Shown piece by piece: positions 20,496 through 37,417 of a stretch of 64,000 nt of DNA (positions are counted from its first letter, which is position 1; each line of letters opens with the position of its first letter). The stretch spans positions 62,001 to 126,000 of the forward strand of contig CANRNN010000009.1 of assembly GCA_947632025.1 (NCBI GenBank), in the 5' to 3' direction. The position numbers were made by a program, and so were the translations under genes. The stretch comes from an uncultured Clostridia bacterium. Its GTDB lineage: Bacteria > Bacillota > Clostridia > Oscillospirales > Ruminococcaceae. The notes under the pieces were generated by a model. That model did no database searches. It saw only the letters and a program-made list of their open reading frames with translations, and was not told where the DNA came from.

Positions 20496-20582
20496 GCCGG
20501 TGTGTTGGAATTGGCAGACGAGACGGACTCAAAATCCGTTGGCAGCAATGTCGTGTGGGTTCAAGTCCCACCACCGGCACCA
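20496..20582 (+). tRNA. tRNA-Leu (anticodon CAA)
   Basis: Complete 87-base class II tRNA with encoded CCA end. Acceptor stem GCCGGTG/CACCGGC, anticodon stem ACGGA/TCCGT with loop CTCAAAA (anticodon CAA, reads UUG), a long variable arm (TGGCAGCAATGTCG) and a T-loop GGTTCAAGTCC. It has its own promoter and a terminator 27 bases downstream. Confidence 0.97.
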
Positions 20583-20684: not shown

Positions 20685-20753
20685 GCGTTTCACAGGTCGC
20701 TGCGGGACGATTTGTTTTCGCTCGACTTCTGGGAAATCTTTTTTATAAAGGTT
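20685..20753 (+). repeat. Repeat family B, copy 1
   Basis: Begins GTTTCACAGGTCGCTGCGGG and ends GGGAAATCTTTTTTATAAAGGTTA. A related copy lies at 21459-21545 and inverted pieces at 23599-23664. No coding potential. Confidence 0.75.
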
Positions 20754-20758
20754 AGTCA

Positions 20759-20829
20759 GCAGGGCATAGCCCTGCCCTGCACCGATTCCCAGCAGAGGTA
20801 GCTCCGCTGGGAATGTTTTTTTCTGTACG
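20759..20829 (+). repeat. Hairpin repeat family A, copy 2
   Basis: Palindrome GCAGGGCATAGCCCTGC (20759-20775), then ATTCCCAGCAGAGG...CCGCTGGGAAT hairpin, T7 run and CTGTACGG. Same build as copy 1 with scattered base changes, one of which unpairs a stem position. Confidence 0.85.
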
Positions 20830-21390: not shown

Positions 21391-21437
21391 TCAACTGTGT
21401 GGACAAATTAAATAATCTTTTTTGTCAATGAAACACA

Positions 21438-21454
21438 GCAGGGCATAGCCCTGC
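21438..21454 (+). repeat. Family A palindrome, solo copy
   Basis: GCAGGGCATAGCCCTGC, identical to the 20759 palindrome but followed by family B sequence instead of the CCCAGCAG hairpin. Confidence 0.75.
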
Positions 21455-21458
21455 GCCG

Positions 21459-21545
21459 AAACGTTTCACAAGTCGCTGCGGGACGTTTTGCTAGGCTCGT
21501 TTCGAGCCGCTCTCGACTTCGGGGAAATCTTTTATCGTAAAGGCT
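21459..21545 (+). repeat. Repeat family B, copy 2
   Basis: GTTTCACAAGTCGCTGCGGGACG, a CTCGTTTCGAG mini-hairpin insert, CTCGACTTCGGGGAAATCTTTTATCGTAAAGGCTA. Compared with copy 1 it has an extra stretch of about 18 bases in the middle. Together with the promoter at 21362 it occupies the 307-base gap before 21651. Confidence 0.75.
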
Positions 21546-21650
21546 ATACATCTCTAGTGTAGATAGTGTAGAGGAAAAAATATCCGAATGTGCTGGAATT
21601 GTAGAAAACATGTAACACATTATAATGCCATATAAATGGAGAGAACCATT

Positions 21651-25509: not shown

Positions 25510-25566
25510 GAATATAAGTACGAGCATTCGGTTCGCTTGTTAGATCAAAACTATGGAGGTTTAATT

Positions 25567-26409
25567 ATGGAAATCAATGAAATGGAGTCGTCTTTGAACG
25601 GTAAATTTTTTATGGCGGGTTCGCCCGACGGAGAAATTTTGGTGTTCAATTCCGAAACCGGCGAGAGGTTCGGACCGTATAAGACCGAGTTTTTGAGCGG
25701 CGGGCGGAGAATGTGTCTGAGCGAAGACGGAGAGCTTTTTGCAGCGGGGCAATACAAGGGGAATACGACGATTTACGAGACAAAAACCGGCAAAGAAATT
25801 CGGAGCAACGAATTTTTCCATGCGCAAAGGCTGAGGTTTTCGCTTGACAAAAAACAGCTGTGGGTGTTTTATTCCGATATGCAGTTTATTGTAACTTTGG
25901 GCGAAAAACTCCAGGACCTAAAGCATAATATCAGCGATATTTACCCCGACGCGGAAATGCCGCTGACGTTGTCTGGCGACGAAAAGCAGATAAAATTCCC
26001 CGGAAAAATTCTGAAACTCGAAAAAATGGTAATGGATATGTTTCCGCAAAACGGACGGGTCTATTGTGCTCTGTTCGGCGGCGGAATGAAATGTTTCTCG
26101 AAAACCAAAAAGGAGCTTTGGTCTGCGGAAAACAATCCGGGCGAAATTTATCAGAAAATAGCCTACTGCGGGAAATTTAATTACGTTCTTGGACTTGGTT
26201 TCAAAGCCGAAGAACCGCGGACAGAGCCTTTTCATTTTGTTGACGTGAGGAGTGCCGAAACAGGTGAGCTTGTCTATACCGTGGGACTTTACGAGGGTAA
26301 TTATTTTACGTTTACAGATTGCGGAATTGTCGCTTCAAACGGCGATTTTTACGAACTTCAAGAAAAAGATTTTGTGTTAAAAGAAAAGCGGTTTGATATG
26401 CTTACATAA
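25567..26409 (+). CDS. Hypothetical WD40/beta-propeller-like protein
   Basis: 280 residues, cytosolic, no signal peptide. Repeating segments of about 40 residues resemble beta-propeller blades: FMAGSPDGEILVFNSETGERFG, FAAGQYKGNTTIYETKTGKEI (given in part) and VDVRSAETGELVYTVGL. This blade-like pattern (G-x-x-x-x-U-x-x-x-T-G-x-x) suggests WD40-type repeats, but I recognise no characterised family. ATG 25567 follows TATGGAGGTTTAATT; ten in-frame codons further upstream are unsupported. Monocistronic with its own promoter and a terminator at 26474. Confidence 0.65.
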   Translation: MEINEMESSLNGKFFMAGSPDGEILVFNSETGERFGPYKTEFLSGGRRMCLSEDGELFAAGQYKGNTTIYETKTGKEIRSNEFFHAQRLRFSLDKKQLWVFYSDMQFIVTLGEKLQDLKHNISDIYPDAEMPLTLSGDEKQIKFPGKILKLEKMVMDMFPQNGRVYCALFGGGMKCFSKTKKELWSAENNPGEIYQKIAYCGKFNYVLGLGFKAEEPRTEPFHFVDVRSAETGELVYTVGLYEGNYFTFTDCGIVASNGDFYELQEKDFVLKEKRFDMLT

Positions 26410-26473: not shown

Positions 26474-26508
26474 TATCCGCCGTTTGCTCACGGCGGATAA
26501 ATTTTTTC
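26474..26508 (+). terminator. Rho-independent terminator
   Basis: TATCCGCCG/CGGCGGATA 9-bp stem, 8-base loop, then AATTTTTTC. Ends the gene at 25567 and marks the left border of the putative island. Confidence 0.85.
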
Positions 26509-26523
26509 GCTTAAAATTCGGAA

Positions 26524-26557
26524 TTACGCCTTCATAGCCTCTTCAACCGCAACAGTA
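26524..26557 (-). pseudogene. Displaced 3' end of the GGGtGRT gene (putative distal att site)
   Basis: On the minus strand this stretch reads YTVAVEEAMKA-stop. The intact GGGtGRT gene at 36416-37417 ends CAVAVEEAMKG-stop. The 20 bases 26531-26550 are identical to 36423-36442 (TTCATAGCCTCTTCAACCGC) and in the same orientation. Upstream coding sequence is absent, so this is only the gene's tail, as left at the far end of an element that inserts into a gene's 3' end. Confidence 0.75.
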
Positions 26558-26674
26558 TACACGGTGTATAGCGTGTTAAAGCCCCGTTTGCATCTTACCT
26601 GTGTATTGTAAATACGGCTTTGCAAAAAATATTCCTTGTTCACGGCAATTGTAAAAAGCGTGCTTTGCAAATAC

Positions 26675-27910
26675 TTATTTTATAGTAATAGGAAACCAAA
26701 CCGTAACAGTTGTCCCTTTTCCGATGTCGCTTTCAATGTGTATCTGCGCGTGATGATACATTGCACCGTGCTTTACAATAGACAGCCCAAGACCCGTTCC
26801 GCCTATCGCTTTTGAACGCGCTTTGTCCACGCGATAAAAACGCTCGAAAATGCGCTCCTGCTCCTCTTTTGCAATGCCGATACCGGTATCCCGCACAGAC
26901 AGCAAGACAGTATTTTCGGTTTCACGAACACTTATCTCCGCAAGCCCGTTCGGGTGGTTGTATTTTATAGCATTGTCGCAAAGATTATAAATCACTTCGT
27001 CCAGAATTTTCCGAACTCCGAAAATATGACAATGCTCACCGATAACACGCACCTGTACCTGTGATTTTTCCGCCTCGGACTGTAAACGTTCTGCTATATT
27101 TTCCGCAAGGTCATAAATGTCAACTTGTTCCTGTTCAAATTCCGTTTTTTCGTCTAATTCCGAAATTCGCAGAATATCCTGCACAAGCGTTATCATTCTC
27201 TGTGATTCATCATAAATGGATTTTGAAAAATCAGCGACCGTTTCCCTGTCCGCGTCGCCCTGCATAAGCATTTCCGCAAATCCCGAAATAGAGGTCAGCG
27301 GAGTTTTCAGCTCGTGCGAAACATTCGATGTAAATTCACGCCGCATTTGTTCGCGTTTTTCGCGTTCTTCATCATCTATAATGTTCTTTGAGATCTTCAC
27401 TGAAAGAATTGCCGACGCTCCAACCGCAAGCAGAATTATTACCGCTATCGGAACGGCAAGATTTATGATGATATTTAAAATCGTGTTCTGCCTTGCAGAA
27501 ACGCGGAGAATATTCCCGTTTTCGAGTTTCACGGCATAGTAGACCGTCCTCTCCATAAAGGTTTCGGAATAACGAACGCTTGTGCCGCTGCCGTTTTCCA
27601 GTGCAAGCTGAATTTCCTTTCGGTCAAGATGATTTTCGAGTTTGTCCAGATCCGCCCGTGTGTCGGCAATTACCGTGCCGTCGGGTGCGATAAGCGTAAC
27701 GCGCTCATCGCTGTTTATCCTGTCAAAATAAGAAACGCCCTCCGAAGAAATTGCCGCGCCGACATATTCAGCCTCGGTTTCAAGCCGCGATTTCAACTGC
27801 GCTTCAAAATTCCCGTAGAGCAGTCCGACAATAGCCGCAATGCTTATTACAAGCAGAATTATCGTTATAAAAAGCGTATATCGGAATATTTTCTTATTCA
27901 TCATCTTCAC
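26675..27910 (-). CDS. phoR: Phosphate-sensing histidine kinase PhoR
   Basis: About 411 residues: transmembrane helix (about 8-30), extracellular domain (about 31-150), second helix (about 151-172), HisKA with FTSNVSHELKTPLTSIS, and HATPase with N-box (YNLCDNAIKYN), DTGIGIA and GTGLGLSIV. This is the PhoR layout of Firmicutes; it phosphorylates PhoB/PhoP under phosphate limitation. Last gene of the pst-pho operon and overlaps the end of phoB. Three start codons (27910, 27904, 27901) are possible; none has a strong ribosome site, so it may depend on coupling with phoB. Confidence 0.88.
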   Translation of the reverse strand: MKMMNKKIFRYTLFITIILLVISIAAIVGLLYGNFEAQLKSRLETEAEYVGAAISSEGVSYFDRINSDERVTLIAPDGTVIADTRADLDKLENHLDRKEIQLALENGSGTSVRYSETFMERTVYYAVKLENGNILRVSARQNTILNIIINLAVPIAVIILLAVGASAILSVKISKNIIDDEEREKREQMRREFTSNVSHELKTPLTSISGFAEMLMQGDADRETVADFSKSIYDESQRMITLVQDILRISELDEKTEFEQEQVDIYDLAENIAERLQSEAEKSQVQVRVIGEHCHIFGVRKILDEVIYNLCDNAIKYNHPNGLAEISVRETENTVLLSVRDTGIGIAKEEQERIFERFYRVDKARSKAIGGTGLGLSIVKHGAMYHHAQIHIESDIGKGTTVTVWFPITIK

Positions 27911-28571
27911 CGATTTTATAACCGATATTTTTCACGGTCTGAATGTATTTTCCCGCTTTTCCAAGTTTACTTCTCAGATTTCGGATATGCACGTCAAGCG
28001 TCCGCGATTCGCCGTAAAATTCTCCCCATATTTTGGAGAATAATTCCTCACGGGAAACAACTTTCCCGCCCGCTCTCATCAGAATTTCAAGCAAGGCAAA
28101 TTCCTTGAACGAAAGAGATACAGGCTCTCCCGAAACGGTTACAACGTGCTTTGCGCTATCCACGGTCATTATTCCGATATGAAAAACGGAATTTTCATCT
28201 GCCATTCTTTTACTTCTCCGCAATACCGCACGCACACGGGAAATCATTTCCGTCATTCCGAACGGTTTGGCAATATAGTCGTCCGCGCCAGCGTCAAGCC
28301 CCGTCACCTTGTCAAATTCGCTGTCCTTTGCCGTTATCATAATAACGGGAATTTTGGAGTCTTTGCGGCGTATTTTTCCGAGTATCGAAAGTCCGTCCTC
28401 TTCGGGGAGCATTATGTCAAGCAGTATCAAATCGGGCTTTTCATTCTGATATGCGCTGTAAAATTCGGACGGCAAGGCAAATCCCTCCACCGCATAATTT
28501 TCACGTTTCAATGCGTAACAGACAAGCTTTCGGATATTGTCGTCGTCCTCAACAAAATAGATTTTCTCCAT
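27894..28571 (-). CDS. phoB: Phosphate regulon response regulator PhoB/PhoP
   Basis: 225 residues (from ATG 28571). Receiver domain with acidic pocket FVEDDD, phospho-Asp in LILLDIMLPEEDG and Lys in AKPFG, then an OmpR/PhoB winged-helix domain (LSFKEFALLEILMRAGG, RTLDVHIRNLRSKLG). It should bind the PHO box at 32712 and activate the operon. A GTG three codons upstream is an alternative; GGGTGAT precedes the ATG. Lies 42 bases downstream of phoU. Confidence 0.88.
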   Translation of the reverse strand: MEKIYFVEDDDNIRKLVCYALKRENYAVEGFALPSEFYSAYQNEKPDLILLDIMLPEEDGLSILGKIRRKDSKIPVIMITAKDSEFDKVTGLDAGADDYIAKPFGMTEMISRVRAVLRRSKRMADENSVFHIGIMTVDSAKHVVTVSGEPVSLSFKEFALLEILMRAGGKVVSREELFSKIWGEFYGESRTLDVHIRNLRSKLGKAGKYIQTVKNIGYKIGEDDE

Positions 28572-28613
28572 TTTTATCACCCGTTAATATGATACCACAT
28601 TTTGCACAGAAAA

Positions 28614-29255
28614 TCAAGCCTTATGCTGTCCCGTGAGAGCGTATATTACCCACTCGGCGATATTTTCCGCGTGGTCGCCGATACGCTCGAAATATTTCGC
28701 TATCATCAGCAAATCAAGAAGTGCCGCCGCGTCCTCAGCTTCGCTTTTTACGGCATTAAGCAGCTTTTGTTTCATCTCGATAAACAACTCGTCAACGGTG
28801 TTGTCCATTAAAATTACTGACTTTGCAAGGTCCGCGTCTTTTTCTGTGTAAGAGTTGACGCTTGCGGCAAGCATTTTCACCGCCGCTTCTGCCATTTTCC
28901 CTATATGCTCGCGGAGAGTTTTGTCCGTTTCGCCGATGTAGTCGCCAAGTTCTACAATGTCCTCCGCGTGGTCGCCGATACGCTCCATATCGGAAATCAT
29001 TTTCAGCGCGGCGGTGATTTGCCTGAAATCCGCCGCGACAGGCTGCTGGTGCATTAAAAGCCGCATACAAAGCGCCTCGATGTCGCGCTCTGTTCGGTCT
29101 ATCTGCTTTTCGCATTCCTCGGCGTTTTTCTTCATTTCGGGTTTATTTTCCGTGAGATATTTTACGGCGTAGGATATGCCCTCTTCGCAAAGCCCGCCCA
29201 TTTCCGCAAGTTCTTTATTCAGCAGTCGGAGCTGTTCTTCATAACGGTCGCGCAT
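28614..29255 (-). CDS. phoU: Phosphate transport regulator PhoU
   Basis: 213 residues, two PhoU three-helix repeats, each with the acidic metal-binding signature (ERIGDHAEDIVELGDY near 90-105 and ERIGDHAENIAEWVIY near 192-207). PhoU restrains PhoR signalling when Pst transports phosphate. Its ATG overlaps the pstB stop (TAATG), with GGGAGG in the end of pstB. Confidence 0.95.
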   Translation of the reverse strand: MRDRYEEQLRLLNKELAEMGGLCEEGISYAVKYLTENKPEMKKNAEECEKQIDRTERDIEALCMRLLMHQQPVAADFRQITAALKMISDMERIGDHAEDIVELGDYIGETDKTLREHIGKMAEAAVKMLAASVNSYTEKDADLAKSVILMDNTVDELFIEMKQKLLNAVKSEAEDAAALLDLLMIAKYFERIGDHAENIAEWVIYALTGQHKA

Positions 29256-30004
29256 TAACCAAACCTCCCTGTGATGTAATCTTCCGTGCGCTTGTCGGAC
29301 GGCATTGAAAACATTTTGTCGGTGTCGCCCGCTTCAATAAGCTCTCCGAGCAGGAAAAACGCCGTTTGGTCAGCAATTCTCGCCGCCTGCTGCATATTGT
29401 GCGTGACAATTACAATGGTATATTTTTCACTAAGTTCCATTGCCAGATCTTCAATTTTGGAAGTGGAGATAGGGTCAAGCGCGGAAGTCGGTTCGTCCAT
29501 TAAAAGCACTTCCGGCTCGACTGCCAAGGCTCTTGCGATACACAATCTCTGCTGCTGACCGCCGCTCATTCCGAGCGCGCTCTTTTTCAGTCTGTCCTTG
29601 CATTCGTCCCAGATAGCCGCTTTTTTCAGCGACATTTCCACAATTTCGTCCAACTTTTTCCGAGAACGTATGCCGTGAATGCGCGGTCCGTAGGCGATGT
29701 TGTCGTAAATGCTCATAGGAAACGGGTTCGGTTTCTGAAAGACCATTCCCACGCGCTTTCTCAGTTCATTCACATCATAGTCTTTGTAAATATCCACACC
29801 GTCAAGCGTAATTTCACCCTCTACGCGGCAGCCCTCCACAAGGTCGTTCATTCGGTTGAGGGATTTCAGAAACGTGGATTTTCCGCACCCCGACGGACCT
29901 ATAAGCGCGGTTATCTTCCGCGCGGGGAAATCGAGGTTTATGTCTTTCAAGGCTTGATTTTTGCCGTACCACAAATTGACATTTTTCGCCGAAACAGCGT
30001 TCAT
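29255..30004 (-). CDS. pstB: Phosphate ABC transporter ATP-binding protein
   Basis: 249 residues, full length. Walker [20 protein letters not shown] (about 33-51), signature [15 protein letters not shown], Walker [14 protein letters not shown] and the switch His in VTHNM. Energises phosphate import with PstA and PstC. Overlaps pstA (ATGA) and phoU. Confidence 0.97.
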
Positions 30005-30855
30005 TTTCCTTTTCCTTTCTTAAGTAGTTTTGCGGCGATCTTAGCGGCAATATTGAGCAAAAGCGTGAGTACCAGCAGTATCGCGGCAATTGCGAACGCC
30101 GTGTCGATATCCACGCGCTCCTTTGTGTAAAAGTACATCGAAACCGTGAGCGTAGAACCCGCACCGCCTGCGCTTAACGCTTCCTTAGGCGTTAATATCT
30201 CGTTCGCCATACCCGCCGTGTACATCAGCGCGGCGCTTTCTCCGACAATTCTTCCCACCGCTAAAATGCAGCCTGTGACAATGCCGTCAATCGCGGACGG
30301 CAGAACGACCGTTCTTATTGCATGCCATTTTCCCGCGCCAAGTCCGAAAGCACCCTCGCGGTAGCTTTCGGGAACGGTTTTCAGGCTTTCCTGAGTTGTC
30401 CTGATGATAGTCGGCAGGGTCATTATCACAAGCGTCAGCGCGCCTGCAAGCAGACTTGTCTGAAGCGAGCAGAACTGCACGAAAATCAACATTCCGACAA
30501 GTCCGTAGATTATCGACGGTATTCCCGAAAGCGTTTCGGCGGCAAGCTCTATAATTCTCACGGCTTTTTTGTTTTTCGCGTATTCGCTCAGATACACCGC
30601 TGCGCCCACTCCGAGCGGCAGCACGATGACAAGCGTCATAAGGATAATATAGAGCGTGTTCAGCAGGTTTGGCAGAATACCGACAGTATGATGGAGCAGG
30701 CTCGGTTTACTTGTGAGGAAATCAAGGCTTATGTTCGGAAGTCCGCGCGCGAGGATACATAAAATCATTCCCGCAAGCAGAAGGCAGATAAAAGCCGCGG
30801 CTGTCCGAACAAGGAAATTCAGGAAAATGCTCTTTATTTTCCGAGATTTTTTCAT
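30001..30855 (-). CDS. pstA: Phosphate ABC transporter permease PstA
   Basis: 284 residues with six transmembrane helices and the permease signature ([19 protein letters not shown] type, seen as [14 protein letters not shown], followed by [16 protein letters not shown]). Forms the membrane channel with PstC. Overlaps pstC and pstB by 4 bp each, showing tight coupling. Confidence 0.95.
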
Positions 30856-31781
30856 TTCTTATCCCTCTTTACAATAAGGTTCAGCACAAGATTTATCGCC
30901 AAAATGAATATCAAAAGAACTAAAGCGATAGAAAACAGCGCCTCGCGGTGAAGTCCCGAAGAATACGACATCTCGCTTACTACCGCTGTTGTGAGAAGTC
31001 TTACGCTCTTGAAAATGCCGGGCATATTCGCGACGTTTCCCGCGACCATTATAACCGCCATTGCTTCTCCTACCGCTCTGCCCACTCCGAGAACGACAGA
31101 CGCGGTTATTCCGCTTTTCGCGGCGGGAATACTTACCTTGAAAACCGTTTCCGCGTGCGTTGCGCCGAGAGCCAAAGACGCTTCCTCGTATTCCCTCGGA
31201 ACGGCTCGCAGAGCGGTTTCCGATACCGAGATGACCGACGGCAGTATCATAATGGCAAGCACGATTATCGCCGAAAGCAAATTTGCTCCGTCGGGAAGTC
31301 CGAAAATTTCACGCACGGCAGGAACAACGTAGATCATTCCCAGAAGTCCATAAACCACCGACGGTATTCCTGCCATAAGGCTGACTGCGCCGCTTACCGC
31401 CGTACTTATCCGCTTTCCCGAAAATTTCGCGAGAAACGCCGCGCATAAAATGCCGACAGGCACTCCGATAATTACCGCGCCTGTTGTCGCGCAGACCGAG
31501 CTTAAAATAAACGGCAGTATGCCGAATTTCGGGTCGGAGTTTGTCGGCGCCCATTCCGTTCCGAAAAGGAAATCCGTTATTCCTATCTCGTTTATCGCGG
31601 GCGCTCCCGAAATGACAAGAAATACCGTTATCACCAGTACAAACGCCACGGCTATAAACCCGCATACTCCGAAAATAATGTGCATAAGCTTTTCGGAGAT
31701 TTCCGCGGCGGGATTTGCCTTTTTCGGCTTTTCGAGAATATGTATAGCTGAAACCGCATTATTCTGCAACAGGAACCGCAC
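30852..31781 (-). CDS. pstC: Phosphate ABC transporter permease PstC
   Basis: About 309 residues, six transmembrane helices, with the permease loop EASLALGATHAETVFKV and VGRAVGEAMAVIMVAGN. The chosen GTG start at 31781 overlaps the end of pstS by 23 bp, which is unusual; TTG 31769 or ATG 31685 are alternatives, the last giving an N-terminus right at the first helix. Confidence 0.92.
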   Translation of the reverse strand: MRFLLQNNAVSAIHILEKPKKANPAAEISEKLMHIIFGVCGFIAVAFVLVITVFLVISGAPAINEIGITDFLFGTEWAPTNSDPKFGILPFILSSVCATTGAVIIGVPVGILCAAFLAKFSGKRISTAVSGAVSLMAGIPSVVYGLLGMIYVVPAVREIFGLPDGANLLSAIIVLAIMILPSVISVSETALRAVPREYEEASLALGATHAETVFKVSIPAAKSGITASVVLGVGRAVGEAMAVIMVAGNVANMPGIFKSVRLLTTAVVSEMSYSSGLHREALFSIALVLLIFILAINLVLNLIVKRDKK

Positions 31782-32628
31782 CCGCCTCTCTTATATACTC
31801 GCTTACCTCGCTGCTTGTGCAGAAATCGAAGAACGCCTGCGCCGACGCCGAAAGCGCTTTGTCTTTAGATGTCACAAGCAAAAATCCTCTTTGAATGGGG
31901 TATTCCTTGCTTAAAACCGTATCTTCCGAGGGAGTAACTCCGTCAACGCTCAATGCTTTTACGGTATTTCCGACAGCAGCAAGCGACGCGTAACCTATGG
32001 CGTTAGGATTAGACGCGACTGTCTGAATAACGTCGCCTGTTGAGGTGAGCTCCTGTGAGTAAACGCATTTTTCCGCAGTACCCGTGACGGATTCAAAGCC
32101 GTCGCGAGTTCCCGACGCTGCCTCTCTGCCTATGCAGACGATAGGAGCGTCACTGCCGCCGACTTCCGACCAGTTTTTGATTTCACCAAGATAGATTTTT
32201 GTTATCTGCTCTTTTGTGAGATCTGTAACGGCGTTATCTTTGTTGACGATAACAGCTATGCCGTCGAGAGCAATTACCGTACCGTTAAGAGTTTGGGATT
32301 CTTCGGGCTTGAGGTCGCGGCTTGAAAGTCCGATGTCGCAACGTCCGTCCTGAACGGCTTGTATCCCCGAACCCGAACCTGTGGGATTGTAGGTCACTTT
32401 AACGCCCGTTTTCTCCTGATAAGCTTCGCTTAAAAATCCGATAACGGATTCCATAGACGTCGAGCCGTCCGTTGAAACGGACGAGGACTGCTCGTCGTTT
32501 TTCGCTTGCTGATTTACCGAGGACGTCTGAGAATTGCCGCTCTCCGAGCCTTTTTCAGCGGAACAACCCGCCGCGCAAATCGCCATCAAGACCGCCAAAA
32601 TACCCGCCATAAATTGTTTGTTTTTCAT
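31759..32628 (-). CDS. pstS: Phosphate-binding lipoprotein PstS
   Basis: 289 residues. Signal peptide with lipobox ICAAGC (Cys near 22), a Ser/Gln/Asn linker, then the binding domain with the phosphate-contact segments STDGSTSMESVIGFL, TYNPTGSGSGIQAV and GREAASGTRDGFE. ATG 32628 chosen because AAGGAAG lies 8 bases upstream and a proper signal peptide follows; a longer reading to 32706 would cover the promoter. First gene of the operon, behind the PHO box. Confidence 0.93.
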   Translation of the reverse strand: MKNKQFMAGILAVLMAICAAGCSAEKGSESGNSQTSSVNQQAKNDEQSSSVSTDGSTSMESVIGFLSEAYQEKTGVKVTYNPTGSGSGIQAVQDGRCDIGLSSRDLKPEESQTLNGTVIALDGIAVIVNKDNAVTDLTKEQITKIYLGEIKNWSEVGGSDAPIVCIGREAASGTRDGFESVTGTAEKCVYSQELTSTGDVIQTVASNPNAIGYASLAAVGNTVKALSVDGVTPSEDTVLSKEYPIQRGFLLVTSKDKALSASAQAFFDFCTSSEVSEYIREAGAVPVAE

Positions 32629-32672
32629 ATACTTACTTCCTTTCAAAAATATTGCTTTTTGTTTGCAATTTA

Positions 32673-32728
32673 AGTATACATCACGGCGTGTTAAGGTTGA
32701 AATCATTTTAGTGTAAATTGTATGTAAA
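32673..32728 (-). promoter_or_regulatory. PHO box and promoter of the pst-pho operon
   Basis: Minus strand: TTTACA-N5-TTTACA (32712-32728), the PhoP/PhoB direct-repeat form known from Firmicutes (TT[ATC]ACA with 11-base period). A further TTAACA half-site lies at 32689-32694, and a TATACT -10 box at 32673-32678. The -35 region is poor, as expected for an activator-dependent promoter. Confidence 0.8.
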
Positions 32729-32742
32729 ATTCAATTTTTGTA

Positions 32743-32776
32743 TAAAAAATTCCGTCTCGCCAAAAAACGAGACGGC
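32743..32776 (-). terminator. Rho-independent terminator
   Basis: CCGTCTCG/CGAGACGG 8-bp stem with a minus-strand U-run. Ends the XRE gene at 32822 and insulates the pst operon. Confidence 0.85.
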
Positions 32777-32821
32777 ACTAAATATGTTCGGTTCAGAATT
32801 GTTCCAAAAACGCAGGCTTTT

Positions 32822-33532
32822 TTATTCGCCGCTGCTCCTTACCCCTGTAAGCATATAATCAAAGCTGATGTTGAACGCTTCGGATATTCTGCACAAGTCG
32901 GAGAAGTTATAGTTACGCTTTTTCTTTTCGGCTATGCCTATATCGCCCAACTCGTAAATCTTCTGTTTGGGTAAGAGTGTTTCTTCAAGCTGTTCGGGCG
33001 TAATTCCCATAATCATAAGGTGTTGGAGAATTACCATTGATAACCGCACTTGCAGGAATTTATACTCCTCTCCCGCAGGCAGCTTGCCCAAAATGCTTAA
33101 AATCATATCCCGCGCAGGGATATTGTTATGCTTTGATACCCGTGCGCTTTCGGGTAGCCTGATAAGCTGACAGTACAGTTCGGGAGTCATCAGATAGCGC
33201 ATATCGACGTGCATATAATCGGCTATTCGCTCGTAATCCGAATATTTCGGCAAATTCTTATCAAAGCCGTTTAAAAGGCTTGAGATATAGTCGGGGTGCG
33301 CCTTAAAGGAATTATACACTTCCTTAAGCGAGTTTCCAGATTTGACCCACTCAACAGACGGTTCATCGTCATCATCAAAGAAATAGCTTATCTGCACATC
33401 AAAATAATCCGACAGCATTTTGACGGTATCAAAGCTAACGTTTGAACCGTTCTTCCAACGCTTTAGATTTGTAGAGCTTATTCCGAGCTTGTTAAGCAGC
33501 GGGGTGGGCTTTTCATTGTGCAACTCGCACAA
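32822..33532 (-). CDS. XRE-type helix-turn-helix regulator (N-terminus disturbed)
   Basis: 236 residues from TTG 33532. The N-terminal Cro/CI-like domain shows LLNKLGISSTNLKRWKNGS and FDTVKMLSDYF; a second domain of similar style is visible at the end (ITPEQLEETLLPKQKIYELG, CRISEAFNISFDYMLTG). In-frame codons just upstream of the TTG read FDKFIQL, matching the normal N-terminus of such regulators, but they run into the opposite-strand ATPase remnant without an ATG. I infer that the true start was lost at a junction near 33555. It may once have controlled element genes. Confidence 0.7.
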   Translation of the reverse strand: MCELHNEKPTPLLNKLGISSTNLKRWKNGSNVSFDTVKMLSDYFDVQISYFFDDDDEPSVEWVKSGNSLKEVYNSFKAHPDYISSLLNGFDKNLPKYSDYERIADYMHVDMRYLMTPELYCQLIRLPESARVSKHNNIPARDMILSILGKLPAGEEYKFLQVRLSMVILQHLMIMGITPEQLEETLLPKQKIYELGDIGIAEKKKRNYNFSDLCRISEAFNISFDYMLTGVRSSGE

Positions 33533-33536
33533 TTGT

Positions 33537-34086
33537 ATAAATTTATCAAATGGCTGTGGTATCCGTACATACCGCTTGGGAAAATCACGATAATGCAGGG
33601 CAATTCGGGAATTGGCAAGACGATGCTTGCGTTAAATATCGCAGCTGCGCTCTCGAAAGGCGAACCTCTCCCAGGCGACACTCAGCCGCGCGAACCTGTC
33701 AACATCATTTACAACACTGCTGAGGACGGTTTGGGCGATACGATAAAGCCTCGGCTGCGTGCGGCGGAAGCAGACCCATACTATTTCAATGACAGATGAA
33801 CGTATAGAAGATTCGGTTGTTGAGCTTAATGCTATAACTGCTTATTCTCGATCCAATACAGGCGTATCTCGGAGCAAAGATAGATATGAACAAGGCAAAC
33901 GAGGTGCGTTTCATTTTTGCGCAATTGGGGCGCGTAGCCGAGGAAAAAGAATGCTCTGTTGTTCTTATCGGGCATAAAGGGAAAAATCAGATGTACAGTG
34001 AGCTGCAAAGTCTGCTCGGTTCTACCGACCAAGTAGCGGCAGCGCGAAGCGTTCTTACAGTCACAAAGCACCCAAAAAATTCCTAA
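33537..34086 (+). pseudogene. AAA-family ATPase (RepA/helicase-like), frameshifted
   Basis: A single protein is spread over three frames. Part 1 (to 33799): KWLWYPYIPLGKITI and Walker A GNSGIGKTMLAL. Part 2 (near 33790-33815): TDERIED. Part 3 (from about 33838): Walker B LLILDPIQAYLGAKIDMNKANEVR and VVLIGHKGKNQ (both shown in part), ending AAARSVLTVTKHP. This is the RepA-like plasmid/ICE ATPase (AAA_25) found beside relaxases. Two frameshifts and loss of both ends make it non-functional. Confidence 0.75.
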
Positions 34087-34375
34087 AAGTGAGATAGCCA
34101 CATAGTCATAAATTTTTATAGTACGGGAATGGCAAGATGGTCTTGCAACGTGGTCGCGGCGTTCTTGCGTGGGTTTGTGACTATCTTCTCAAATCAACAT
34201 AGCCATTCTTAGTGTCTGAAAATGACTGACTATCTGACAATGTTAAGACAGCGGAGCGGGGAGTGCAGAGGGGCGGCAGTCCCTTTGCCCCTCGGAGAGC
34301 CCCTGTACTTATGATACGATATAGGTTACCTACGGCAAGCCGTAGGTAAAAACGAGCGCGGAAAGGAGAACGAAT
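34087..34375. other. Non-coding mobility region (possible oriT)
   Basis: No gene. A perfect 9-bp inverted repeat ACCTACGGC-AA-GCCGTAGGT lies at 34328-34347, 29 bases before the relaxase remnant, where origins of transfer usually sit. A GC-rich patch (GGGGCGGCAGTCCCTTTGCCCC, in part) precedes it. GAAAGGAGAACGAAT is the ribosome site of the former relaxase. Confidence 0.45.
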
Positions 34376-35115
34376 ATGGCGGCAAAAACAATTTCCCATT
34401 GTGAAGGAAAGGGGAGTTTGTCACATAATAATAGAAAGTTTCAAGCGAAGAATGTTGACAGCTCACGCACGGCAGACAACGTGTCTTTTGTCGAAATCCC
34501 CATAAAGCAAGCCTACGAGGAGTGTTTCGGTTCTGCGGTGGAACGGTACAACGCAAAACAGAAACGTTCCGACCGCAAGATAAAAAACGGGTATTTTCAA
34601 TATGCGTTTGACCGAAAGCCGTGCGATACTGTTGTGACTGCGGCAGACAAACGCAAGAGCTTTTACGAGGACATTGTTCAAATCGGCACAAAAGGCGATA
34701 CGGGCGTAGGTTCATCAGATGCCGAAATCGCCAAGCGAGCCTAACCGAATATATGTCGGGATTTGCGGAGCGTTCACCAATTTTTTTCGTGTTTAATGCG
34801 GTTCTTCATATGGACGAGGCTACTCCACACTTGCATATTGACTACATACCTATCGCACATTGCAAGCGCGGGTTGGACACCCAAAACGGTATGGCGTAGG
34901 CTCTAAAAGAAATGGGTTTCGGCGACGGCAAGGATGCAATTAGTCGTTGGCGTGAACGGGAGCGCAAGGTGCTTGCCGAAATATGCAAGCGACACGGCAT
35001 TGAAATTTCCGCGCCCGAAAAAGTGCGCGGCAGCTTTGAAGTGGACGAATACAAGCGGTATAAGGACAATATCTCGGAGCTTGAACAGAAAGAAACGGAG
35101 GCTCTGAGTGAGTAG
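34376..35115 (+). pseudogene. MobV-type relaxase / plasmid recombination protein, broken
   Basis: Frame 1 (34376-34744) encodes MAAKTISHCEGKGSLSHNNR to AEIAKRA and then stops; one base seems to be missing at about 34740, and the protein continues in another frame as LTEYMSGFAER with the MOBV motif HMDEATPHLHIDYIPI. An in-frame TAG at 34897 interrupts NGMA-stop-ALKEMGFG (a CAG to TAG change would explain it). The remainder to 35115 keeps the relaxase pattern (ISRWRERERKVL), then ends early. So: one frameshift, one nonsense codon, truncated C-terminus. Confidence 0.8.
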
Positions 35116-35228
35116 TGGGAAAAGGCTCTTATGACGAAAAGTCGTGGGCGCGGCAGATAGGGGGAGTAGAATGAAACTTATTTGACATTTTTCTTTTCAG
35201 CTCTGAAATAAAAAAGGAGGTTATAACG

Positions 35229-36271
35229 ATGAAACAACCTAATGGTTACGGTTCGGTTCACAAGTTGTCGGGAAAACGTCGCAAGCCGTGGCGTGTTTGT
35301 AAAACCAACGGTTGGGCAATGAACAAGGATGGAACGAAACTTGTTCAGCAATACATAACGATAGGTTATTATGAAACGCGGCAGGAAGCCTTGCAGGCTC
35401 TCGCTGATTATAATCAAGACCCATACGATATAAAAAACACAACGTCAACTTTTGCGGAGGTCTATGCAAAATGGTCTGAAGAGCATTTCGATGAGATTTG
35501 CGCGTCTGCTGTACGAACTTGGAAATCCGCGTACAACTACAGTAAACCTTTGTGGGATATGAGAATGAGGGATATAAGGGCGGCGCACCTTGAACAAACC
35601 ATAAAAGAAGCCGCCGTAGGAGATGATACCAAAGGTCGTATGAAGTCATTGTATAATCAAATGTTTCGGTATGCAATGAAACACGAGATAGTCAACAAGG
35701 ACTATGCCGCCCTCTGCAATCCTGTAAAGAAAACCGCTTCATCTGCACCTAAAGTACCGTTCACGGAAGATGAAATTCAACTTTTGTGGGATAACCTCGA
35801 TTATTCTGTGGTGGATATGATACTTATTGAGATATATTCGGGTTGGCGACCGCAGGAGCTTGCACTTTTAAAGACAAAGGACATTGATTTGGCGCAAGGC
35901 ACAATGTTCGGCGGAATAAAGACAGACGCGGGAAAAAACCGCTATGTGCCTATTCACACGAAAATTCGTCCGCTTATTGAAAAGAGATATGATGCCGCCA
36001 ACGAGCAGTTGTTCAACGATTTCACAAGCAAAGAACCGAAAATGACTTACGACAAGTACGACCAACGTTTTAAGCGTGTTATGGAACACCTCGGACTGAA
36101 ACACAAACCTCACTAAACGCGTCATACATTCATTACTCGGGCAAAAGAAGCGGGAGTTGACGAATATTGTCTGAAGCTGATTGTAGGTCATCAAATCGGT
36201 GACGTGACAGAAAAAGTTTACACCCACCGACAATAGAAAACCTGCCAAGAGAGATTGAGAAAATCCCATAA
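35229..36271 (+). pseudogene. Tyrosine integrase, interrupted at the catalytic HxxR box
   Basis: The first 295 codons give an arm-binding N-terminus (QPNGYGSVHKLSGKRRKPW), an SAM-like core-binding domain and the first catalytic Arg (YSGWRPQELALLK). A TAA at 36114 replaces the Asp of the H-D-T-R-H box (KPH-stop-TRHTF). The frame then continues with LKLIVGHQIGDVTEKVYTH (His and the Tyr nucleophile), and a further one-base shift before TIENLPREIEKIP-stop. Catalytic domain is thus split and inactive. It lies next to the 36423 repeat, the expected position for an integrase beside its att site. Confidence 0.85.
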
Positions 36272-36277
36272 AAACAA

Positions 36278-36308
36278 GCGGCTGCCAAATCGACAGCCGC
36301 CTTAATTT
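36278..36308 (+). terminator. Terminator after integrase remnant
   Basis: GCGGCTG/CAGCCGC 7-bp stem, 9-base loop, then CTTAATTT. Confidence 0.65.
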
Positions 36309-36352
36309 GTGTATTACAGATGTGTATTACCTGTGTATTATTTGTGTATTAC
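36308..36352 (+). repeat. Four direct repeats TGTGTATTAC
   Basis: TGTGTATTAC at 36308, 36321, 36332 (last base T) and 36343, spaced 13, 11 and 11 bases, so on about the same helix face. A fifth near-match (TGTGTATTGT) occurs at 26600 close to the distal repeat. This is what arm-type integrase binding sites would look like, 70 bases from the core repeat. Confidence 0.65.
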
Positions 36353-36415
36353 AAATAATTTTTTATTTTATTTCACGGTATTGGACAAAGCCTAAACCCG
36401 CATTCCTGCGTGTTA

Positions 36416-37417
36416 TCAGCCTTTCATAGCCTCTTCAACCGCCACCGCACAGGCAACAGTTGCGCCTACCATCGGGTTGTTGCCCATTCCGATAAGACCC
36501 ATCATCTCAACGTGAGCAGGCACCGACGAAGAACCTGCGAACTGCGCGTCGGAGTGCATACGTCCCATCGTATCGGTCATACCGTAGGAAGCGGGACCCG
36601 CCGCCATATTGTCGGGGTGGAGAGTACGTCCCGTACCGCCGCCCGAAGCCACCGAGAAATACTTCTTGCCCTTGTCGTTGCACTCTTTCTTGTAAGTGCC
36701 TGCAACAGGGTGCTGGAATCTCGTGGGGTTGGTGGAGTTGCCCGTAATGGAAACGTCAACGCCCTCTTTCCACATAATAGCCACGCCCTCGGTAACATCA
36801 TTTGCGCCGTAGCAGTTTACCTTTGCGCGAAGTCCGGTGGAGTATGCCTTGCGGAATACTTCCTTAACTTCTCCTGTGTAATAATCCATCTCGGTTTCAA
36901 CATAAGTAAATCCGTTAATTCTCGCGATTATCTGAGCCGCGTCTTTTCCAAGACCGTTCAGGATAACGCGCAGCGGCTCCTTGCGGACTTTGTTTGCTTT
37001 TTCGGCGATACCGATAGCGCCCTCTGCTGCTGCGAAGCTCTCGTGACCTGCAAGGAAGCAGAAGCACTTTGTTTCTTCTTCAAGGAGCATCTTGCCGAGG
37101 TTTCCGTGACCCAAGCCGACTTTTCTCTGGTCTGCAACAGATCCCGGAATGCAGAACGACTGAAGTCCCTCGCCGATAGCCGCAGCCGCGTCAGCAGCTC
37201 TCGTGCAGCCTTTTTTAACAGCGATAGCGCAGCCCACTGTGTACGCCCACTTTGCATTCTCGAAGCAGATAGGCTGTATACCCTCAACTATTTTGTACGG
37301 GTCGAAGCCCTTTGCCTTGCATATTTCGGCGCACTCTTCAATGGAGTTTATGCCGTATTGCTTAATGACAGCGAGGATCTGTTTTTCTCTTCTGTCGTAA
37401 GATTCAAATAAAGCCAT
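36416..37417 (-). CDS. GGGtGRT protein
   Basis: 333 residues. It carries the eponymous VASGGGTGRTLHPDN motif (about 213-227) and a C-terminal GATVACAVAVEEAMKG. This conserved anaerobe protein has no settled function and is nearly always encoded with the NifU-like scaffold gene found here just upstream (17-base gap), so they probably act together, perhaps in metal or cofactor chemistry (inference). AGGAGGTACATAGAA is the ribosome site. The 3' end has served as an integration target for the element to its left and remains intact. Confidence 0.88.
   Translation of the reverse strand: MALFESYDRREKQILAVIKQYGINSIEECAEICKAKGFDPYKIVEGIQPICFENAKWAYTVGCAIAVKKGCTRAADAAAAIGEGLQSFCIPGSVADQRKVGLGHGNLGKMLLEEETKCFCFLAGHESFAAAEGAIGIAEKANKVRKEPLRVILNGLGKDAAQIIARINGFTYVETEMDYYTGEVKEVFRKAYSTGLRAKVNCYGANDVTEGVAIMWKEGVDVSITGNSTNPTRFQHPVAGTYKKECNDKGKKYFSVASGGGTGRTLHPDNMAAGPASYGMTDTMGRMHSDAQFAGSSSVPAHVEMMGLIGMGNNPMVGATVACAVAVEEAMKG
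36423..36442. repeat. Putative att core at the GGGtGRT gene 3' end
   Basis: TTCATAGCCTCTTCAACCGC, identical to 26531-26550. It encodes the last residues AVEEAMK of the GGGtGRT protein. Confidence 0.7.

Follow-up and report, generated by a model that had tools for sequence, protein, structure and literature searches.

A stretch of 64,000 nucleotides from an uncultured Clostridia bacterium (contig CANRNN010000009.1, positions 62,001 to 126,000; "the window") was analyzed for mobile DNA and compared with 43 genomes of the same genus, labelled by G numbers, G000 being the window's own. The window contains a 9.9-kb interval at the 3' end of a GGGtGRT gene which is probably a decayed integrative mobilizable element (IME), of the kind termed a cis-mobilizable element (CIME), and which carries as cargo an operon of pstSCAB, phoU and phoB-like and phoR-like genes (the Pst-Pho unit). 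Judged by its divergence between species, the operon was acquired horizontally. It is likely, though not proven, that it rode this element.

Direct repeats at the GGGtGRT gene and the element between them

The first-pass annotation had described a fossil integrative element framed by a direct repeat. The repeat is real: its two copies, attL and attR (Table 1), are identical at 22 of 23 positions, 20 of which form an exact match. When up to three mismatches were allowed, the 20-mer was found at these two sites only within the window, and none of 100 shuffles had it, which rules out a chance repeat. Duplication of the GGGtGRT gene was ruled out as a source as well, since the copies share merely 23 nt, and a tRNA integration site was rejected because the only tRNA gene in the window (Leu, 20496-20582) falls outside the interval.

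The copy at 26.5 kb, read on the minus strand, encodes VAVEEAMKA and a stop codon and is followed by a terminator hairpin. The same gene end, with a similar hairpin next to it and no element between, was found in G038, G041 and G042. Because these empty sites show that end and hairpin, the gene originally ended, by this comparison, with the 26.5-kb copy, and a replacement end arrived with the element: the 36.4-kb copy is the end of the present gene, whose last codons are element-derived. At the empty sites, the window flank aligned with G038 (75% over 93 nt) and G041 (74% over 90 nt); for G042 the terminator was similar by eye, with an alignment of just 30 nt. The expectation that relatives would carry GGGtGRT joined directly to the 26.4-kb side therefore held for the gene end and terminator. 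It failed for the gene beyond, a WD40-like gene (25537-26409) with homologues in six other genomes of the 43, which does not adjoin GGGtGRT in G033, G038 or G041. GGGtGRT was matched in 35 genomes, 23 of which supplied the 3' ends compared. The motif AATACAC occurred in 10 of these 23 loci within the 260 nt that follow GGGtGRT, compared with 1 of 23 for the reversed control motif. Just inside attL, four TAATACACA repeats are probably arm-binding sites of the integrase.

Pfam matches and tblastn pieces confirmed the integrase, relaxase and ATPase remnants noticed at the 36-kb end. The integrase pseudogene is 91% and 82% identical to uninterrupted copies in G002 and G009, respectively. The relaxase remnants cover residues 127-379 of the 542 of the uninterrupted G002 protein (tblastn), and the ATPase remnants residues 16-206 of the 314 of its G002 counterpart. 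A functional IME would have an uninterrupted integrase and relaxase; here the integrase has two stops and the relaxase is in pieces. Both attL and attR are kept while the integration and transfer genes are lost, which agrees with the definition of a CIME used here, as worded in the relevant part of PMC5704250.

A complete related element of ~5.5 kb was found at the GGGtGRT site of G009, in the order GGGtGRT, integrase (347 aa), Mob_Pre relaxase, AAA_25 ATPase, helix-turn-helix (HTH) regulator, RelB/YoeB, attR. The six proteins are its only open reading frames (ORFs) of at least 80 aa, and no conjugation machinery lies inside. Its integrase matched PF00589 (E 1.6e-16) and its relaxase PF01076 (E 1.2e-28) and a plasmid recombination enzyme, PDB 4lvi (E 1e-20). 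The element is att-bounded, with its empty site in G024, where its right flank (94%, 1215 nt) and GGGtGRT side (96%, 1036 nt) abut with a 33-nt overlap. The att pair, the empty sites and this complete relative support the reading as a fossil integrative element. In G002, the integrase, relaxase, ATPase and HTH genes are uninterrupted up to the HTH gene, where the contig ends; its relaxase scored above the Pfam cut-off and below that of the NCBIfam MobV model (30 of 100 bits). G026 has an open integrase, just past which the contig ends. With the window genome, these make up the four of the 43 genomes that have a near integrase (at least 79% identity). Beyond the genus, 394 genomes of the same order yielded integrase relatives of no more than 43% identity, and the 33 matching plasmid records were all below 60% identity.

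The region between the HTH gene and attR behaves as a cargo slot, ending in a right arm partly common to several genomes (Table 1). It holds RelB/YoeB in G009 and the pst operon in the window. In G011, a ToxN type III toxin gene occupies the slot (C103 7893-10073, L125, right arm to HTH fragment), flanked by two HTH-matching stretches, the second being a further stretch of HTH tail. In G039, RelB/YoeB lies between two successive right arms (C33 5746-6623, L124), as a cargo-only remnant or an accretion. Compared in this way, the family order in the genus is attL, integrase, Mob_Pre relaxase, AAA ATPase, HTH, cargo, attR.

These double structures bear on whether the interval is one element or two elements or CIMEs accreted in tandem at the same att site, the distal one bringing pst and the inner att having been lost. 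Tandem accretion is known for IMEs, according to the part of PMC5704250 that treats it, and the two right arms of G039, the two HTH-tail stretches of G011 and the presence in G037 of pst with a right arm and no detected integrase would fit it. Against this, the window has no third att copy with up to three mismatches, and the succession of HTH, cargo and right arm is also that of the single G009 element. We regard accretion as improbable and favor one element with a cargo slot.

Other elements were observed at this gene. In G005 (C5, L128, 3875-16592), a different tyrosine integrase lies directly 3' of GGGtGRT, and 24 nt of the gene end recur without mismatch 12.7 kb further along; a second type of element probably occupies this site. 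Among public GGGtGRT loci, 72 of 80 were examined, the eight with incomplete 3' ends being omitted. Integrase-like ORFs started within ~310 nt past the GGGtGRT match in six of the 72 (L161, L170, L207, L210, L211 and L226, Lachnospiraceae among them; E 2e-6 to 4e-55), and a repeat of the gene end was found downstream in L211 and L220.

The pst operon, its distribution and its divergence

At the 26-32-kb end, none of the seven pst and pho genes is interrupted or truncated, as the first-pass annotation had stated. PstS, PstC, PstA, PstB and PhoU scored above their NCBIfam cut-offs; the regulator and kinase scored below theirs and were assigned by operon position and best match. The pstS gene most likely starts at 32628, since the ORF start at 32706 falls in the PHO-box-like promoter region. 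The genome yielded no further PstB (next best match 34% identical), and its two PstC matches are the PstC and PstA of this operon, which is the sole Pst system found in the genome. A pst dN/dS (ratio of nonsynonymous to synonymous divergence) of ~0.1 between species indicates selection for function, presumably phosphate uptake.

Table 1. Features of the interval and its borders (positions within the window; a dot marks features without strand).
Feature	Position	Strand	Basis
GGGtGRT gene (PF14057), integration target	36416..37417	-	Pfam E 1.4e-193; 3' end compared in 23 congener loci
attL, repeat copy at GGGtGRT 3' end	36423..36445	.	repeat comparison
Four TAATACACA repeats just inside attL	36308..36351	-	4 in window vs 0.22 expected
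Tyrosine integrase pseudogene, facing attL	35229..36251	+	Pfam PF00589; in-frame stops 36114 and 36234
Mob_Pre (MobV-type) relaxase remnants, two frames	34349..35106	+	tblastn with G002 protein; PF01076 below cut-off, one piece
AAA_25 ATPase remnants, three frames	33539..34080	+	PF13481 E 2.6e-17 on one piece
HTH regulator gene of the element, open	32822..33532	-	PF01381; 75% to G002, 74% to G009 proteins
PHO-box-like pstS promoter region, TTTACA-type repeats	32686..32731	-	block conserved in G000, G033, G038, G042, G037
pstS	31759..32628	-	TIGR02136 above cut-off on longer ORF 31759-32706
pstC	30852..31781	-	TIGR02138 above cut-off
pstA	30001..30855	-	TIGR00974 above cut-off
pstB	29255..30004	-	TIGR00972 above cut-off
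phoU	28614..29255	-	TIGR02135 above cut-off
phoB-like response regulator	27894..28580	-	best NCBIfam TIGR02154, below cut-off (206 of 296 bits); operon position
phoR/pnpS-like histidine kinase	26675..27910	-	best NCBIfam PnpS 268/400, PhoR 235/334 bits, below cut-offs; operon position
Right arm inside attR, inner limit approximate	26554..26662	-	partly common to G009, G011, G039, G033, G037
attR, original GGGtGRT 3' end; stop codon 26524-26526	26531..26553	.	repeat; same end in empty sites
Original GGGtGRT terminator hairpin	26475..26498	.	aligns with empty sites of G038 and G041

The Pst-Pho genes are usually treated as core, and the first-pass annotation took them as such. This did not hold in the genus: PstC was detected at E 1e-10 in 17 of the 43 genomes (13 of the 27 good ones) and not in the other 26. 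The operon has other neighbors in G037, G038, G042 and G007. In G026, pst and GGGtGRT are on separate contigs, each ending nearby, and in G033, pst lies near GGGtGRT with the same neighbor as in the window and with element remnants retained. The same pst order beside the same neighbors without repeat or mobility remnants, the pattern that would speak against a mobile origin, was therefore not seen. The G033 arrangement could be taken to mean that pst was always downstream of GGGtGRT, the repeat being chance or a remnant of gene duplication. That reading is scarcely credible, given that the two copies share 23 nt and no gene remnant, that the empty sites, the complete G009 element and the shared right arm account for both copies, and that pst lies elsewhere in four relatives. 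Its loci there and the 26 genomes in which PstC was not found led us to reject pst as a native neighbor of GGGtGRT.

In G042, pst precedes a 62-nt 3' fragment of tRNA-Leu(CAG) (C13:27084-27145), and the intact tRNA lies 22 kb upstream. The 22-kb stretch from the intact tRNA to the fragment (G042:C13 4865-27145; L068, L312, L313) has pst at its end, which suggests a second, tRNA-associated island context. No integrase was found in this stretch with a model built from four integrases. In G038, a second copy of the pst promoter with its PHO-box-like sequence (88%) lies ahead of a 614-aa gene (L066 8457-8517), and an intergenic repeat of the window (20693-20775 and 21411-21551) recurs just downstream of pst (L066 18230-18353).

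Divergence was compared for all six pairs of G000, G033, G038 and G042. Synonymous divergence (dS) was 0.12-0.38 per gene for pst/pho, compared with 0.44-1.88 for GGGtGRT and nifU, 0.83-1.64 for rpoB and 1.03-2.28 for gyrA. In tree path length, these pairs were 0.06-0.08 apart by pst and 0.19-0.46 apart by the core set. The pst genes are not intrinsically slow, because between G000 and G037 the path lengths were 0.33 for pst and 0.43 for core, and pstSCAB and the pho genes reached a dS of 1.09 and 0.70, respectively. Similar pst genes in species with distant core genes argue for horizontal transfer. The contrast is also present on a single contig of G033, where identity to the window is 90% for GGGtGRT-nifU and 94% for the pst block.

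A comparison of pst and core phylogeny, as suggested by the first-pass annotation, gave a mixed outcome: the divergence contrast supports transfer, and the tree shapes alone would not. Seven of the 17 PstC genomes are in the pst tree; G008 and G016 were excluded from the trees used, eight with PstC 46-50% identical were left uncompared, and a tree with a faulty G008 rpoB row (branch length 10) was discarded. For the seven shared genomes, both trees group G000, G033, G038 and G042, pst at 100/100 and core weakly at 62/62; the branching order of the four within the pst tree is not resolved by the data. The conflict that stands concerns G037 and G026, a pair with core support (97/99) that pst rejects (approximately unbiased test, p-AU 4.5e-48). 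The pst data also reject a clade of G000, G033, G037 and G026 (p-AU 2.4e-12), which contradicts no supported core branch. The test on a wider core set, which rejects the four genomes as one clade (p-AU 2.8e-73), takes in four further genomes that nest with G038 and G042 and are absent from the pst comparison. The wider core tree groups G042 with G041, G031 and G035, in none of which PstC was found.

Proposed transport of the operon by the element

The att pair, the original gene end, the empty sites, the complete relative, the cargo slot, the decay and a divergence of the kind left by transfer can each be read from the sequences compared. From these, the following course of events is considered probable. 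A tyrosine integrase recombined the attP of the element with the 3' end of GGGtGRT, supplying a new, near-identical gene end. The slot of the element holds a complete Pho unit, with the PHO-box-like promoter, pstSCAB, phoU, the phoB-like regulator and the phoR-like kinase. The operon came by horizontal transfer, most likely aboard such an element, which a helper element may have mobilized by conjugation. The mobility genes later decayed, and the operon was retained, no other Pst system having been found in the genome.

Alternatively, the pst block could have entered the cargo slot of an already integrated, decaying element by homologous or illegitimate recombination and never have travelled on it. 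Operons just as similar stand elsewhere in G038 and G042 with no element sequence; they favor such an entry, as does the exchange of pst islands without mobile hallmarks in marine HIMB59 (described in part of PMC10734472). Both operon-element junctions recur, which argues against it: that between the HTH tail (the last ~20 nt of the gene) and pst in G033, and that between phoR and the right arm in G037. Between G000 and G033, moreover, the block including the ~20 nt of HTH tail is 94% identical and the adjoining GGGtGRT-nifU 90%, and because the block is the more alike, the shared junction is not simply ancestral inheritance. We consider later entry unlikely, if somewhat less so than accretion.

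Several observations weigh against transport by the element. The equally similar operons of G038 and G042 imply that this element is not the sole vehicle, and the direction of transfer is not fixed by the data. G037 has its operon and right arm separate from GGGtGRT, and its genome gave no integrase match at E 1e-20. No composite of an open integrase and pst was found among the genomes with a near integrase: the G009 slot holds RelB/YoeB, and in G002 and G026 the contig breaks off within the element. The right end of G033 is on another contig, and its flank past attR does not align with that of the window. The seven-genome core tree (62/62) does not contradict the four-genome group, which leaves divergence as the basis of the argument for transfer. 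All 43 genomes are in at least 10 contigs, and the 10 to 500 contigs of the relatives compared could raise the question of an assembly or binning artefact. Such an artefact is very improbable, as the window lies on a 132-kb contig, each operon-element junction is present in a second genome, and diverged GGGtGRT and similar pst stand on one G033 contig.

Known systems and significance

Tyrosine-integrase IMEs of Firmicutes at 3' gene ends with a MobV relaxase are known (PMC5357655, PMC5704250, in the parts describing them). The elements described here resemble these IMEs and CIMEs, as portrayed there, in the outward-facing integrase at one end, the 3' gene-end site, the PF01076 relaxase, the lack of type IV secretion system genes and the toxin-antitoxin cargo in the complete relative, and the retention of attL and attR after decay. 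They differ in their site, GGGtGRT not being among the sites named in those parts of the two papers, and in the window cargo, a whole Pst-Pho unit. The word phosphate is absent from both texts, which give other ABC transporter components as cargo. The C-terminal catalytic part of the G009 integrase (residues 277-346 alone) aligned with the 'Int protein' of PDB 6emy and 6emz (E 5e-10 to 1e-9), which we take to be a Tn1549-type integrase; its best PDB match was a XerC-like recombinase, 4a8e (E 1e-13). No report on integration was found in the GGGtGRT literature, judging by titles and abstract openings, and the openly accessible literature, mostly at title level, gave no account of GGGtGRT as a site or of pst as IME cargo.

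Phosphate-related flexible genomic islands with pstSCAB and phoU have been described for marine HIMB59, with Prochlorococcus cited too (PMC10734472, in part). The accessory, horizontally exchanged pst operon is common to both systems. The HIMB59 islands, as described in that part of the paper, occupy one fixed position without mobile hallmarks, and their exchange is thought to be homologous. Here, unlike in HIMB59, pst lies at several loci (elsewhere in G037, G038 and G042), one of them inside att-bounded mobile DNA with an att pair and integrase remnants.

The GGGtGRT 3' end is indicated as a recurrent integration site in gut Clostridia. Within this genus, the Pst-Pho unit is patchy, near-identical in species with distant core genes, present at several loci, and inside att-bounded mobile DNA in the window genome and probably in G033. 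A mobile-element route may thus be offered for phosphate-regulon exchange, as against the homologous recombination supposed for HIMB59. We put forward only tentatively that IMEs directed at GGGtGRT disseminate whole Pst-Pho regulons among gut Oscillospiraceae. If true, high-affinity phosphate uptake with its own sensor would be an exchangeable accessory trait, kept after its carrier dies.

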